From Anderseniella sp. (lineage in GTDB: Bacteria > Pseudomonadota > Alphaproteobacteria > Rhizobiales > Aestuariivirgaceae): DNA of 64,000 nt. The position numbers were made by a program, and so were the translations under genes. This document shows positions 39,340-45,333 of this stretch, in pieces (position 1 is the first letter of the stretch; each line of letters starts with the position of its first letter). Under the pieces are notes generated by a model. That model made no database searches and was not told where the DNA came from. It worked only from the letters and a program-made list of their open reading frames with translations. Location of the stretch: the NCBI GenBank assembly GCA_028289645.1, contig JANQOK010000013.1:496001-560000 (forward strand). Reading direction: 5' to 3'.

Positions 39340-39485
39340 GGTCAGGATTGTATTCTGTCATGGTGATTGGCCAGTCCATCTTACGCCGTCAGCAAGCAAA
39401 CACAATCCGGCAACTCGCAGAAACCTCATCATGTGTTAAACTTGTCAGCATTCATCGTAGTGCTGGTCGGTTAAGGTTCAATAAT

Positions 39486-40637
39486 ATGAAAATTCTCGTC
39501 GGTACAACCAAGGGCACATTTCTGGTTTGCGGGGACAACAAGAGGGACAACTGGGCGGTCAAGGGTCCGTTCTGCGACGGCTGGCCGATCAACCACATTG
39601 TGGGAGATGTTGCCACCGGGGCGTTGTGGGCCGGCGGCGGCGGCGAGTGGCATGGCGCCGGCGTCTGGCGCTCGGATGATGGCGGTGAAACCTGGCAGGT
39701 CACCAGGTTGACCAAAGGCCTGATGGACGACTGGGCGGCCGGCGATGCGGATTTTGCCGCGATGATCGGCTGGACTGGTGAGGCGCTGCCCTTCACGGAT
39801 GAGTTTGCCCAGATCTGGTCGCTCGGCCATGCCCACGGCACCTTGTATGCCGGCACCAAGCCTGCCGGCCTGCTGGCCAGCCATGACGGCGGCAGCACCT
39901 GGGAGCGGGTGAATGGGTTGACCGATCACCCGTCTGCAGAAAAGTGGGACCCAGGCGCCGCTGGCTTGGTCCTGCACACGATCGTTTCAGATCCGTCCAA
40001 TGCCGAAAAACTCTGGGTGGGAATTTCCGCCGCAGGCGTCTTCGCCACCGAAGACGGCGGCAAGACCTGGGAACGCCGCAACCGGCTCTCCAACGCGGAA
40101 GCGTGCGACCAGCACGAGCATCCGGCGGCACCGCGTGATGGCGAAACCGGCCACTGTGTACACAACATCATGCGTGCTTCAGGATCGGGTGATGTTTTCT
40201 ACCAGCAGAACCATCATGGTGTGTGGCGGTCGGCAGACGGAGGACGCAGTTGGGATGACATCACCGGCGGACTGCCGTCGACTTTCGGGTTCCCGATCTG
40301 CGTTCATCCGCGCGATGCCAACATGATCTGGACCATTCCCCTGAACGGCGACAGTGTCGGACGGTTTCCGCCGGACGCGGCTGCGGCCGTATGGCGTTCG
40401 AAAGATGGCGGCAAAACCTGGCATGACCTGCGCGCCGGACTACCGCAGGAAAGCTGCTTCTTCACGGTGTTGCGTCAGGCAATGGCACGGGATGAGCGCG
40501 ATCCACTGGGGCTTTATTTCGGAACCAACAGCGGTTCGGTTTTTTCCAGTCTCGACGAAGGTGACAGCTGGCGGGAGATTGTCCGGCATCTGCCCACGAT
40601 ACTGTCCGTAGAAGTGCTGGACGAAAGTTCTGCATGA
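39486..40637 (+). CDS. Asp-box (BNR) beta-propeller protein, sialidase/photosystem-assembly-like fold
   Basis: 383 residues from ATG 39486 (MKILVGTTKGTF). Six Asp-box motifs are visible: SDDGGETW, SHDGGSTW, TEDGGKTW, SADGGRSW, SKDGGKTW and SLDEGDSW, which mark a multi-bladed beta-propeller. No signal peptide is seen, so it is probably cytosolic. No sialidase catalytic set (Arg triad, FRIP) is evident. Its stop overlaps the RidA start in ATGA. The track start at 39348 is rejected because it adds 46 residues from the divergent promoter region. Confidence 0.82.
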   Translation: MKILVGTTKGTFLVCGDNKRDNWAVKGPFCDGWPINHIVGDVATGALWAGGGGEWHGAGVWRSDDGGETWQVTRLTKGLMDDWAAGDADFAAMIGWTGEALPFTDEFAQIWSLGHAHGTLYAGTKPAGLLASHDGGSTWERVNGLTDHPSAEKWDPGAAGLVLHTIVSDPSNAEKLWVGISAAGVFATEDGGKTWERRNRLSNAEACDQHEHPAAPRDGETGHCVHNIMRASGSGDVFYQQNHHGVWRSADGGRSWDDITGGLPSTFGFPICVHPRDANMIWTIPLNGDSVGRFPPDAAAAVWRSKDGGKTWHDLRAGLPQESCFFTVLRQAMARDERDPLGLYFGTNSGSVFSSLDEGDSWREIVRHLPTILSVEVLDESSA

Positions 40638-41080
40638 AACCGGGAGCTGTCGTTGAGACCGCCGCGAATGGCGGGTATCATCTGGTGATGAACAAGCGAT
40701 CAATCATTCCTGCCGAAATGCAATCCATTTATGATGACTGGCATATGTCGCCAGGTTTGGATTGCGATGGTTTCGTGTTTCTGACCGGGGTCAATGGCGT
40801 GGCCAGTGACGGGACGGTTTCCGTGCATGCAGAAGAGCAGATCGAGATTGCCTTTTCGCACGCCGAAACGGTGCTTGCCGAGGGCGGCATGTCGTTCGCA
40901 GACGTCCTTGAGGTGACCAGTTACCATGTCGGCATTCGGCAGCATCTTGACAGTTTCAGGAAGGTCTGGGAGCGAAAAGTTGTTGAGCCCTATCCCGCAT
41001 GGACTGCGATCGAAGTTGCCGGATTTGCATCTGAAGGTGTTGTAGTGGAACTGCGTATCATTGCCCGCAGGAAACCATGA
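40634..41080 (+). CDS. RidA/YjgF-family protein
   Basis: 148 residues. GFVFLTGVNGVASDG, QIEIAFSHAETVLAEGGMSFADVLEVTSYHVG (quoted here only as FADVLEVTSYHVG) and a C-terminal AWTAIEVAGFA are typical of the Rid superfamily. The usual catalytic Arg of RidA (R105 in E. coli) is not clearly placed, so it may be a Rid subfamily with another task than imine hydrolysis. Translationally coupled to the Asp-box protein. The following 131 bp (41081-41211) hold no gene. Confidence 0.8.
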   Translation: MKPGAVVETAANGGYHLVMNKRSIIPAEMQSIYDDWHMSPGLDCDGFVFLTGVNGVASDGTVSVHAEEQIEIAFSHAETVLAEGGMSFADVLEVTSYHVGIRQHLDSFRKVWERKVVEPYPAWTAIEVAGFASEGVVVELRIIARRKP

Positions 41081-41211: not shown

Positions 41212-41610
41212 CTAGCTTTTCCGTCCGCGCTGGCTTTTCAGGGCAATGGCAAGCAGCCGTTGGAATTTCCTGCATTCAAGATGACTGGGCGCGGGGCATT
41301 GCGAAGCGTGGCGCAGGCCATCGCGCATTGCGGTGAGTTGCCTGATGGTCCGGTCCAGTTGATCCGCCTTCGACGCCAACTGGCTGCGATCGATCCTGGG
41401 CCCGTCGGGGGTGAACATGGCAGCGATCTCGTTGAGCGTAAAACCGGCATTGCGTCCCAAGGCAATGAGGGCCAGCCGCTGCAGCACGTCAGCGTCGTAG
41501 ACCCGGCGCAGACCCTTGCGGCCTATCGGCTTGAGCAGCTTCTTGTCTTCGTAGAAGCGCAACGTTGAAGCGGGCAATCCCGACAGTCTGGAGACCTCTC
41601 CGATATCCAT
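41212..41610 (-). CDS. MerR-family transcriptional regulator
   Basis: 132 residues. The winged-helix N-terminus MDIGEVSRLSGLPASTLRFYE is canonical (quoted in part: ASTLRFYE). A C-terminal C-x7-C pair (CPAPSHLEC) replaces the four-cysteine cluster of SoxR, so it is not SoxR. The gene is divergent from the thiopurine methyltransferase gene, and the intervening promoter has a 19-bp spacer with a dyad. Confidence 0.9.
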   Translation of the reverse strand: MDIGEVSRLSGLPASTLRFYEDKKLLKPIGRKGLRRVYDADVLQRLALIALGRNAGFTLNEIAAMFTPDGPRIDRSQLASKADQLDRTIRQLTAMRDGLRHASQCPAPSHLECRKFQRLLAIALKSQRGRKS

Positions 41611-41632
41611 AACGGTTCCTGCGAATTCACTA

Positions 41633-41663
41633 TTGACCTCAAGTTCACTTGAAGTTGTATCTT
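41633..41663 (+). promoter_or_regulatory. MerR-type promoter with SoxR-box-like dyad
   Basis: -35 TTGACC (41633-41638) and -10 TATCTT (41658-41663) are 19 bp apart, the long spacer typical of MerR-activated promoters. The dyad CCTCAAGTTCACTTGAAG (41637-41654) matches 16 of 18 positions of the E. coli SoxR box as I recall it. It drives the methyltransferase gene starting at 41705 and lies 22 bp from the MerR start codon. Confidence 0.75.
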
Positions 41664-41704
41664 TGCGGGATCAGGATTTCAATGACCATGCAAAGGATAC
41701 CGAG

Positions 41705-42361
41705 ATGGAAGCGGAATACTGGCATCAAAAGTGGCGCACGGACGATATCGGGTTCCATGAAGCCGAGGGCAACCTCTTGCTGCATGCCAATTTCAAGGAG
41801 TTGGCGTTACCTGCCGGCAGCCGGGTGTTTGTTCCCCTGTGCGGCAAAACCCGCGACATCGGCTGGCTGATGTCACAAGGCTATCGGGTTGTCGGCGTGG
41901 AGCTGAATGAGCCGGCGGTTCGGCAATTGTTCGAAGATCTGCAGTTGGTGCCGACGGCAACCACGACAGGTGGCATGACGTGTCTAGAGGCCGGTGACCT
42001 GGAGGTCTTTGTCGGCGATTTCTTCACGCTTGCACCGGACATGCTGGACCCTGTCGACGCCATCTTCGACCGTGGAGCGCTGGTGGCGCTGCCGGAAGAC
42101 ATGCGCACCCGCTATGCCCGTCACCTAACCAGAATTGCCGGTCATGCCCCGCAACTGCTGGTGACATTTGAATATGACCAGACGCAGATGAATGGTCCTC
42201 CGTTCTCCATTGGCGATGCCGACGTCCGCAGCCATTATCAGGACAGCTATAGAATAATGCCCCTGGCCAGCGTCGATGTGGCGGGAAAGCTGAAAGGCAA
42301 ATGCGACGCGACCGAAAACGTCTGGCTTCTGCACCCCAGGCATGTCCCATCCGTATCCTGA
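41705..42361 (+). CDS. tpm: Thiopurine S-methyltransferase family protein
   Basis: 218 residues from ATG 41705 (MEAEYWHQKW), with AAAGGAT 8 bp upstream; the track start at 41633 runs through the promoter. SAM-binding motifs VFVPLCGKTRDIGWL near residue 40 and VVGVELNEPAV near residue 62 are diagnostic of the TPMT family. Bacterial members methylate thiopurines, selenite or tellurite, and some give metalloid resistance. The MerR promoter upstream suggests induction by a stressor. Confidence 0.9.
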   Translation: MEAEYWHQKWRTDDIGFHEAEGNLLLHANFKELALPAGSRVFVPLCGKTRDIGWLMSQGYRVVGVELNEPAVRQLFEDLQLVPTATTTGGMTCLEAGDLEVFVGDFFTLAPDMLDPVDAIFDRGALVALPEDMRTRYARHLTRIAGHAPQLLVTFEYDQTQMNGPPFSIGDADVRSHYQDSYRIMPLASVDVAGKLKGKCDATENVWLLHPRHVPSVS

Positions 42362-42471: not shown

Positions 42472-45333
42472 ATGTCACATACATTCCTAACTGTCGCTGT
42501 GCCGCTGGATACCGGCAACACCGATGATGTCAATGCGAGGCTGGACAGCTACGGCAACCCTTTTCGCCGTGATTTGCGCAATTTGTTCCGCGGCAGCAGT
42601 GTACATTTCATGTCGGTCAATGTGCTGCCGGCTGACAGGGACAATAGTCATGGCGCCTTTCTGGTGATCGAGACCAGCCAGGATGGCGACAAGCAGGCGG
42701 CCATAGATGACATTGCGACACGGTTGAGGGACGTCTTGCGGGACATTCTCTCGGTTGCCGGACATGAGGTTGAAGAGGCCAAGCTGGCTGAATTCCTGAC
42801 CGAGCACTCACACGATTCAGGTCTGGGGCTGTTCAGTACGCCCGGACTGAACCACGCCGGTACCCCAGGCATGACCGCGACACGAATTCGGCGGGAATGG
42901 GACTTTGCCAGAAGGGTGCGGGAGTTGGCTGGGGAAGGGTCGGTTTCCGGATCGCCCCTTGAGATCCTGAACCAGGTGCACGAACGGATGGCCGGTCTGG
43001 CGGAATTTGCGGATATGATGCGGGTCGAGGACGTGCCATTCGCACGCTCCAACGCAGCGGTCTCTGTTCCCATTGTAAAGATGGTGATCAACGGGCTGAA
43101 GACTTTCACCTGGCCTTATCTGATAGTTTTTGCCATCGCATTGTTCTGGGCGGTTGGTTTTGCCGGCAGGGCGGGTGGAGCCTGGTTTGCGGTCGCTATG
43201 GGTGGTTTGACGTTGTTGGGCGGCGTATTGATCCTGGCGGCGGCCGTCGGATTGATCTACGCCCGGCTGCGCGCCAGGGAGCGCACCGACAGCGCCGCTG
43301 ACCTGACACCTGACTATGATGTGCTAAGTCAGGTAATGGCGCGGGAAAACAACGGCAGCATCAACCACCTCTATGGTGTCTCGAAGATGAAACCGGGCAG
43401 GTTGCGCCGACTGACACTCAGGTTTGCCTTCTGGTTCATCGCGCAGATGGCGACCCACGTTTTCAGGCCCGGTTATCTGGGCAATATCGGCACCATTCAC
43501 TTTGCGCGCTGGATCATGGTGCCCGGTACCGACAAGTTGCTGTTCTTTTCCAACTATGGCGGCAGCTGGGAAAGCTACCTGGAAGACTTCATCACCAAGG
43601 CATCCGGCGGTCTCACTGCCGTGTGGAGCAATACCGAGGAATATCCGAAAACCGAGAACCTGTTTCTGAAAGGTGCGACAGACGGCGACCGGTTCAAGCG
43701 CTGGGCGCGACGTCAGCAATTGCCGACAAGACTGTGGTATTCAGCCTATCCCAATACGACGACAGACCGGATTCGGGGAAATGCCTTTATCCGCCGCGGG
43801 TTGTTGACGGCAAAGACCGAGAGTCAAGCGCGCGAATGGCTGTCTCTCATCGGTTCACGGCGGATGCCGGCTCATGCGCTTGAGACAGATGAAATTCAGA
43901 CCATTCTGTTCGGTGGCTTGAGGAAACTCAATGAAGCCGCCTGCCTGCTGATCAAACTGCCTGATGACAGCTCGAAGGCGAAGGCCTGGCTCAGGGAGCT
44001 GCAGGGGCACGTGCGCTACGGCGACCGGCCGCCGGACAGAAAGGCGATTCTCTTTGCCGTTACCTCTTCCGGCCTGTCCAAGCTTGGCCTGACGGCGGAA
44101 CAGATGTCCGCGTTTCCTGCCGCCTTTCGGCAAGGCATGAACGAACCGACACGCGCCAAACATGTGCTGAAAGATACCGGCGACGACAAACCCGAAGACT
44201 GGTGGTGGGGCAACGAAGCGGCCGCCGTGGATGCCGCAATCATCGTCTACGCCCAGACCAGTCAATTCGAAAAGGCTGTTGGCGAGCAGGTGACACTGTT
44301 CACTGGGCACGGTTGCGAGCTTGTCCATCAGATCACCGCGAAAGCCAGCCCCGCCGGCGGTGGTGTGGAAAGGGAAGCGTTCGGATTTGCCGATGGGATA
44401 TCGCAGCCGATCCTGAAGGGGACGCGCCGTTCCATCGCGCGGGCCGATGCAATACATACCGTAGAACCCGGTGAATTCATTCTGGGCTACCCCGACAACC
44501 GCAACTTCATGCCGACCAGCCCGCTGCTGCCCGCCAAGGATGATCCAAACAACATCTTGCCCGTGCACAAGCCGTTGGCGGAAGCAGACGACTGGCCGGA
44601 CTTTGCAGCAGACGAGGTCGACCGGCCACGAAATATCGGCCGCAACGGATCGTATCTGGTCGTCAGGCAACTGGAGCAGGACGTGGATGCGTTCCATGAC
44701 TTCTCCAAGAAGGCGGCGGATGAGATCAAGAACCGCCAGGGCATTCCGCCGGGCGCTACCAGGAAGCAACTTCAGGAATGGATTGAAGCCAAGATGGTGG
44801 GGCGCTGGAAAAACGGCACTTCGCTGGTGCGGTATCCGTTTGAGGAGGGTGACGGAAAGCCGGACAACGAGTTTCTGTTCGGCCAGGAGGATCCTTCAGG
44901 CTTCCGCTGTCCGTTTGGCGCCCATATCCGGCGCGCCAATCCGCGGGACAGCCTGCACCCGCAAGACAGCGAAGCCGAGCTGTCGATCAGCAACAAGCAC
45001 CGCATACTGCGTGTGGGTCGCCAGTACGATGTGTCCGGTGCCGGTCATGAAGAGGCCAGCGATCCGGGCCTGCTGTTCATGTGCCTTAACGGCGATCTGG
45101 AGCGGCAGTTTGAGTTTGTGCAGCAAACCTGGTGCATGGAGCGCATGTTCCACGGCATGGACGGCGAGGTGGACTCGATTTTGGGCCGCGGTCGCAAAGG
45201 TGGCCGGCTGACGATCCCGACGCCGCAAGGTCCGATCTCCATAACCGGGCTGCAGGATTTCGTGCGCACGCGCGGCGGTGCCTATTTCTTCATGCCCGGA
45301 CGCAGCACGATAAAGTACCTGGCTGAAACGTGA
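42472..45333 (+). CDS. Large membrane-linked DyP-type peroxidase
   Basis: 953 residues from ATG 42472 (MSHTFLTVAVPL). Layout: an N-terminal ferredoxin-like region (about 1-110), a helical linker, two to three hydrophobic segments (about 212-285, such as WPYLIVFAIALFWAVG, and LRFAFWFIAQMA near 330), a second alpha/beta segment with HFARWIMVPGTDKLLFFSN (about 345-460), then a DyP domain (about 480-953). In the DyP domain the distal Asp is in GFADGISQP (D641) and the proximal His in FGAHIRRANPRD (H818). Ordinary DyP enzymes are 300-500 residues. No Tat signal is seen. It lies 110 bp after tpm and converges with the Kef gene. Confidence 0.88.
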   Translation: MSHTFLTVAVPLDTGNTDDVNARLDSYGNPFRRDLRNLFRGSSVHFMSVNVLPADRDNSHGAFLVIETSQDGDKQAAIDDIATRLRDVLRDILSVAGHEVEEAKLAEFLTEHSHDSGLGLFSTPGLNHAGTPGMTATRIRREWDFARRVRELAGEGSVSGSPLEILNQVHERMAGLAEFADMMRVEDVPFARSNAAVSVPIVKMVINGLKTFTWPYLIVFAIALFWAVGFAGRAGGAWFAVAMGGLTLLGGVLILAAAVGLIYARLRARERTDSAADLTPDYDVLSQVMARENNGSINHLYGVSKMKPGRLRRLTLRFAFWFIAQMATHVFRPGYLGNIGTIHFARWIMVPGTDKLLFFSNYGGSWESYLEDFITKASGGLTAVWSNTEEYPKTENLFLKGATDGDRFKRWARRQQLPTRLWYSAYPNTTTDRIRGNAFIRRGLLTAKTESQAREWLSLIGSRRMPAHALETDEIQTILFGGLRKLNEAACLLIKLPDDSSKAKAWLRELQGHVRYGDRPPDRKAILFAVTSSGLSKLGLTAEQMSAFPAAFRQGMNEPTRAKHVLKDTGDDKPEDWWWGNEAAAVDAAIIVYAQTSQFEKAVGEQVTLFTGHGCELVHQITAKASPAGGGVEREAFGFADGISQPILKGTRRSIARADAIHTVEPGEFILGYPDNRNFMPTSPLLPAKDDPNNILPVHKPLAEADDWPDFAADEVDRPRNIGRNGSYLVVRQLEQDVDAFHDFSKKAADEIKNRQGIPPGATRKQLQEWIEAKMVGRWKNGTSLVRYPFEEGDGKPDNEFLFGQEDPSGFRCPFGAHIRRANPRDSLHPQDSEAELSISNKHRILRVGRQYDVSGAGHEEASDPGLLFMCLNGDLERQFEFVQQTWCMERMFHGMDGEVDSILGRGRKGGRLTIPTPQGPISITGLQDFVRTRGGAYFFMPGRSTIKYLAET

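Follow-up and report, generated by a model that had tools for sequence, protein, structure and literature searches.

A MerR-type regulator with a two-cysteine loop and a SoxR-like operator, divergent from a thiopurine methyltransferase gene, belongs to a widespread unnamed subfamily

Organization of the merR-tpm locus

The window analyzed here, a 64,000-nt stretch from Anderseniella sp., carries a gene for a MerR-family regulator and a gene for a thiopurine S-methyltransferase (tpm, TPMT), which are divergent and separated by a gap of 94 bp. Both open reading frames score above the Pfam cut-offs. The features of the locus, in window coordinates, are:

41212..41610, minus strand: merR, 132 aa, ATG start; MerR-family activator by Pfam/NCBIfam, alignment and AlphaFold model
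41633..41638, plus strand: TTGACC, the −35 element for tpm; TTGA is present here in 119 of 121 aligned relatives
41637..41654, no strand assigned: operator dyad CCTCAAGTTCACTTGAAG, SoxR-like and of the subfamily type, by pattern search and matrix scores
41658..41663, plus strand: −10 element TATCTT, 19 bp past the −35 element; over 119 relatives, the mean −10 match is highest with a spacer of 19
41705..42361, plus strand: tpm, thiopurine S-methyltransferase (TMPT_Se_Te), 218 aa, by Pfam and TIGR03840
42472..45333, plus strand: DyP-type peroxidase-like gene, 953 aa, with Dyp_perox_C and a long N-terminal part without assignment

The start of tpm is best placed at the ATG at 41705, judging from the AGGA upstream of it, in preference to the mechanical TTG start at 41633, which lies inside the promoter. 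The distance between TTGACC (41633–41638) and TATCTT (41658–41663) is exactly 19 bp, an overlong spacer and the length that an earlier note on this DNA had given. On the other flank, a RidA-family (Endoribonuclease L-PSP) gene (40634–41080) is convergent to merR, and directly upstream of it lies a gene for a BNR/sortilin-like beta-propeller protein (39348–40637), which matched an F510_1955 family glycosylhydrolase model below its cut-off.

The DyP-like open reading frame starts with an ATG at 42472, 110 bp past the tpm stop and in the same direction, and no terminator-like site was seen between the two genes. Co-transcription of the two genes is possible, as the earlier note had suggested, but the tpm-DyP adjacency is found only here and in one congener (G001). 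In two other genomes with DyP relatives (G050 and G022), a MerR search returned distant MerR proteins only. The DyP-like protein itself scores 22.7 with Dyp_perox_C (Pfam cut-off 20) and 91.5 bits with TIGR01413 (cut-off 100.5), while its ∼550 N-terminal residues (42472–44160) have no Pfam or NCBIfam match; a hydrophobic, membrane-like stretch lies near residues 215–270.

The regulator and its operator

PF13411, PF09278 and PF00376 all match above their cut-offs and place a MerR helix-turn-helix in the regulator, followed by a predicted helix (residues 75–104) that would correspond to the MerR dimerisation helix. General MerR models match as well, but none of the named MerR equivalogs of NCBIfam comes near its cut-off: the SoxR model TIGR01950 gives 56.5 bits (cut-off 116.9), the CueR model TIGR02044 57.4 bits (cut-off 147.4) and the NmlR model NF041849 26 (cut-off 175). 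The AlphaFold model (pLDDT 88) has SoxR and CueR as its nearest folds, and the best PDB profile matches of the protein are again CueR and SoxR, nearly tied. The C-x2-C-x-C-x5-C [2Fe-2S] cluster of SoxR is missing. The only cysteines in this region are the two of the loop CPAPSHLEC (C105-x7-C113), and the positions of SoxR C119 and C124 are taken by Ala102 and Ala107. Thus, membership in SoxR fails, in agreement with the earlier note, which had pointed to the missing cluster and the C-x7-C pair.

When the 124 relatives are aligned with CueR and SoxR, whose reference sequences are consistent with the PDB alignments, C105 and C113 prove invariant (124/124) and occupy the columns of CueR C112/C120 and SoxR C122/C130. 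His110 within the loop is kept in 120 of the 124 relatives, and the segment around CueR Ser77 is absent, falling in an alignment gap. The loop of the subfamily can be written as a two-cysteine C-x-APSH-x-EC motif.

The operator dyad CCTCAAGTTCACTTGAAG matches the E. coli SoxR box CCTCAAGTTAACTTGAGG at 16 of 18 positions, with mismatches at positions 10 and 17, which bears out the count given in the earlier note. Of the SoxR consensus CCTCAA-N6-TTGAGG, the first half is matched and the second half reads TTGAAG. A pattern search of the 64-kb window would be expected to yield 0.14 sites at three mismatches, whereas the observed site has one, so that a chance match can be dismissed; it is also the sole close site in the 4.8-Mb genome. 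Boxes of the subfamily share a constant AAGTNNACTT core (GTNNAC) and usually have TTGAA in the −10-proximal half, in contrast to SoxR-associated boxes (n = 34), which have TTGAGG and a variable core. With weight matrices for the two types, the window dyad scores 30.6 bits as a subfamily box versus 24.0 bits as a SoxR box, and the matrices sort 116/117 and 28/29 of the two sets, in-sample.

The genome contains no SoxR in an assembly that is 98.7% complete, so no SoxR here can own the box. Judged by its sequence, the operator is a subfamily-specific variant that belongs to the regulator's own unnamed subfamily and is not borrowed from SoxR. The view of the earlier note, that a MerR protein other than SoxR uses a SoxR-like operator, therefore stands as far as the pairing goes, which is the rule in the subfamily. 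High scores under both matrices (27.1 and 30.6) for the E. coli soxS box make cross-binding of SoxR and this MerR plausible where both coexist. Such coexistence is common: of 26 genomes that encode this MerR, 15 also have SoxR, compared to 28 of 150 in the phylum sample. Two loci (L210 and L225) encode four-cysteine SoxR-type regulators with a near-identical box (TTGACTTCAAGTTTACTTGAACTTG in L210) and a cupin or glyoxalase-like gene as divergent neighbor; they may represent a SoxR branch with unusual targets.

Distribution and targets of the subfamily

A scan of a genome collection with eight orthologues gave 80 loci; the set grew to 124 with near relatives, a sample drawn evenly over the phylum, and plasmids. 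The dyad lies 8–31 bp upstream of merR in 79 of the 80 scanned loci, and in 119 of the 124 loci the box is found at the expected place beside merR, with TTGA preceding the 18-mer. The subfamily occurs in Pseudomonadota, Actinomycetota, Myxococcota and Acidobacteriota as well as on a cyanobacterial plasmid, and 27 of 299 sampled Pseudomonadota genomes (∼9%) encode a member.

Of the 124 loci, 120 have a divergent gene from one of six detoxification-like classes: a Methyltransf_25 enzyme (MTb, 58), DUF2938 (29), TPMT (15), MFS (14), a WrbA-like protein (2) and another small methyltransferase (2), where the MFS call of L165 is doubtful and L155, filed under other, reads as an MFS protein. Class fractions in the first 80 loci are skewed toward the query; the even phylum sample (26 loci) has MTb 9, DUF2938 8, MFS 6, WrbA 2, other 1 and TPMT 0. 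On the regulator tree the labels of the divergent genes cluster, yet they require at least 24 changes, compared to a minimum of 6 for seven labels, with many forks unresolved. Multidrug models (EmrB and Bcr/CflA) match the MFS members, and an NAD(P)H:quinone oxidoreductase model matches the WrbA-like protein, in each case below the cut-off. The target classes of the 124 loci include no metal pump, and catalases, peroxiredoxins and thioredoxins do not form a class among the divergent genes that were classified.

DUF2938 proteins (29 sequences, including L074 and L095) share 35 invariant positions, among them H53, E65, H73 and H143. A comparison of their predicted fold (pLDDT 89) with the PDB gave nothing at E < 0.1, and a sequence search gave no solved relative at E up to 1, so that neither pointed to a ligand. 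In Acinetobacter baumannii (L158, 3851–4919), what appears to be an operon of DUF2938 and a WrbA-like flavoprotein gene diverges from a MerR relative; in G116, G120 and G203 the operator stands before one or the other of these two families. At L087 and at L137/L248 (G112), a MerR relative is followed by antibiotic-monooxygenase (YgiN-like) and flavodoxin-fold (MdaB-like) genes; in L087 the loop reads CPAENHLAC, and no operator was found upstream of merR.

Since the pattern was derived from the family, independent support can come only from sites away from merR. The 31-bp promoter pattern matches 33 of 34 merR-positive genomes, and among 249 phylum genomes a site with two mismatches or fewer is present in 19 of 21 merR-positive but 6 of 228 merR-negative genomes (Fisher 2.6e-21), an association that the origin of the pattern makes partly circular. 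Reversed control patterns gave no match in either set. Perfect sites unlinked to merR lie before MTb in G112, 90 kb from merR, and before a WrbA gene in G120; the congeners G116 and G203 have unlinked sites before DUF2938. These perfect or near-perfect unlinked boxes precede the same families in four merR-positive genomes, which supports a real regulon. In G227, a site with three mismatches lies 85 bp before a tpm gene unlinked to merR. Further extra sites either belong to the four-cysteine SoxR-type regulators at L210 and L225 or fall outside the explained set, as does one before a patatin-like gene in G247.

The TPMT of the window is a full-length member of the TIGR03840 equivalog (250 bits, cut-off 223.2). 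Across the phylum sample, the operator is found at 2 of 30 tpm loci, those of the window and of G227; the other 28 lack it, which marks TPMT as a lineage-specific target. G116 and genomes like it have both tpm and this regulon, unconnected to each other. TPMT is the target in the window and in two congeners, and several marine and methanotrophic lineages as well as a Calothrix plasmid share this arrangement. In Methylomonas methanica (L054) and on the Calothrix plasmid (L164, 2406–3209), a membrane protein is encoded 11–14 bp after tpm. It reads like a TauE/SafE anion exporter, with no NCBIfam match in L164, hinting at sulfur- or selenium-oxyanion chemistry.

Proposed mechanism, alternatives and related systems

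From the gene arrangement, the operator position, the spacer, the cysteine pair, the conservation across phyla and the recurrence of the operator, which are present in the DNA itself, we infer DNA binding, activation and the type of inducer as follows. The regulator would be a one-component sensor, bound as a dimer to the dyad within the tpm promoter with its overlong spacer of 19 bp. Without ligand it would keep this promoter silent, and probably also limit its own divergent gene. Engagement of the Cys105/Cys113 loop would twist the DNA so that RNA polymerase can read tpm, in the mode of MerR, CueR and SoxR. The inducer would be a thiol-reactive or soft organic toxicant, such as an electrophile, a quinone-like compound or a sulfur-containing natural product, which the cell would then methylate, reduce or export. 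The tpm promoter appears to make up the whole regulon in this genome, with transcription that may extend into the DyP gene.

That this MerR regulates tpm is very probable on the in silico evidence. We favor an organic thiol-reactive toxicant over a metal because the target set comprises methylation, multidrug-type efflux, a quinone reductase-like protein and a membrane protein; this inducer class, guessed from the association with targets such as MTb, DUF2938 and MFS, has roughly even odds. Taken together, a ligand- or thiol-triggered MerR activator of tpm and other detoxification genes that responds to an organic thiol-reactive toxicant is the reading we propose on these sequence features, with a probability of about 0.6.

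The earlier note had named thiols, selenite and tellurite as substrates of the target. This fits the name of the enzyme family, but the other targets point at least equally to organic toxicants. TPMT homologues methylate selenium and tellurium species, and metalloids are therefore kept as candidate inducers. A metalloid sensor, whose cysteine pair would bind tellurite, selenite or arsenic species and switch on a volatilising methyltransferase, would be in line with the TMPT_Se_Te equivalog, with a soft-ligand cysteine loop at the CueR positions and with the weak similarity of MTb to arsenite methyltransferase models, far below their cut-offs. It is nevertheless unlikely, as the same type of regulator also stands before multidrug-type MFS, WrbA-like quinone reductase and DUF2938 genes and the operator is found at just two of the 30 tpm genes. 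The same loop could make the protein a CueR-type sensor of monovalent metals (Cu, Ag, Au) whose control of detoxification enzymes would be incidental: its C-x7-C pair matches CueR C112/C120 column by column, and CueR shares the top of the PDB profile matches with SoxR. Against such a sensor, which we consider very unlikely, stand the Ser77 segment lost in a gap, the TIGR02044 score of 57 versus 147, targets without a copper or metal exporter and a separate CueR-like protein in the genome (L006, by reading of its sequence).

Two invariant cysteines would also suit a redox sensor that forms a Cys105–Cys113 disulfide under oxidants such as peroxide or HOCl, with tpm and the DyP-type peroxidase gene after it as an oxidative-stress pair and with WrbA among the targets elsewhere. 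However, the DyP adjacency is confined to two congeners, and catalase, peroxiredoxin and thioredoxin are absent from the classified divergent genes, which makes a redox switch improbable. That the box is instead a SoxR site, and tpm a SoxR-regulon gene beside an unrelated MerR, is hardly credible: the 16/18 identity with the E. coli box and the sequence overlap with true SoxR boxes elsewhere speak for it, but the genome has no SoxR, the box tracks this MerR family rather than SoxR, and the site is matched better by the subfamily matrix than by that for SoxR.

Neither the MerR/TPMT pair nor the subfamily is described in the open-licence papers and family libraries that we searched. In Acinetobacter oleivorans DR1, a methyltransferase and an MFS gene are ∼150-fold up with ampicillin (PMC4201530), an observation that we did not count toward this regulon. 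MerR activators, CueR-type loops, SoxR-like boxes and TPMT are each already known singly; what is new, relative to the papers and libraries searched, is their union in one coherent and widespread subfamily whose defined operator precedes interchangeable targets. Tentatively, and with the odds slightly against it, an undescribed widespread MerR subfamily may sense one class of toxicant and control interchangeable modules (methyltransferases from several families, MFS efflux, WrbA-like reductase and DUF2938) via a single operator. In genomes that also encode SoxR, the DNA sites of the two regulators would be near-identical, with possible cross-talk or divergence at one or two operator positions. 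Such a subfamily would name the regulator and operator of an orphan stress response in ∼9% of sampled Pseudomonadota genomes, would give a physiological context to DUF2938, a membrane family without assigned function, and would offer a clean case for studying how crosstalk is avoided between two MerR sensors whose DNA sites are almost the same.

Among known systems, SoxR (TIGR01950, PDB 2zhg) shares the MerR fold, the helix-2/wing recognition region, a near-identical operator and the 19-bp spacer with this regulator, but differs in its four-cysteine cluster, two positions of which are Ala here, in its operator core and in its targets. CueR (TIGR02044, PDB 1q05) has the C-x7-C loop in the same columns (C112/C120), whereas the regulator described here lacks the Ser77 segment, has an additional near-invariant loop histidine (H110) and has another operator and other targets. 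The target enzyme is a full-length bacterial TPMT above the family cut-off (TIGR03840; PDB 1pjz), although most sampled tpm genes (28/30) are not under this operator. NmlR/AdhR-type MerR activators respond to electrophiles through a cysteine and are work-alikes of the mechanism proposed here; in contrast to this MerR, which scores 26 versus the cut-off of 175 with NF041849, their reactive cysteine is at another position.
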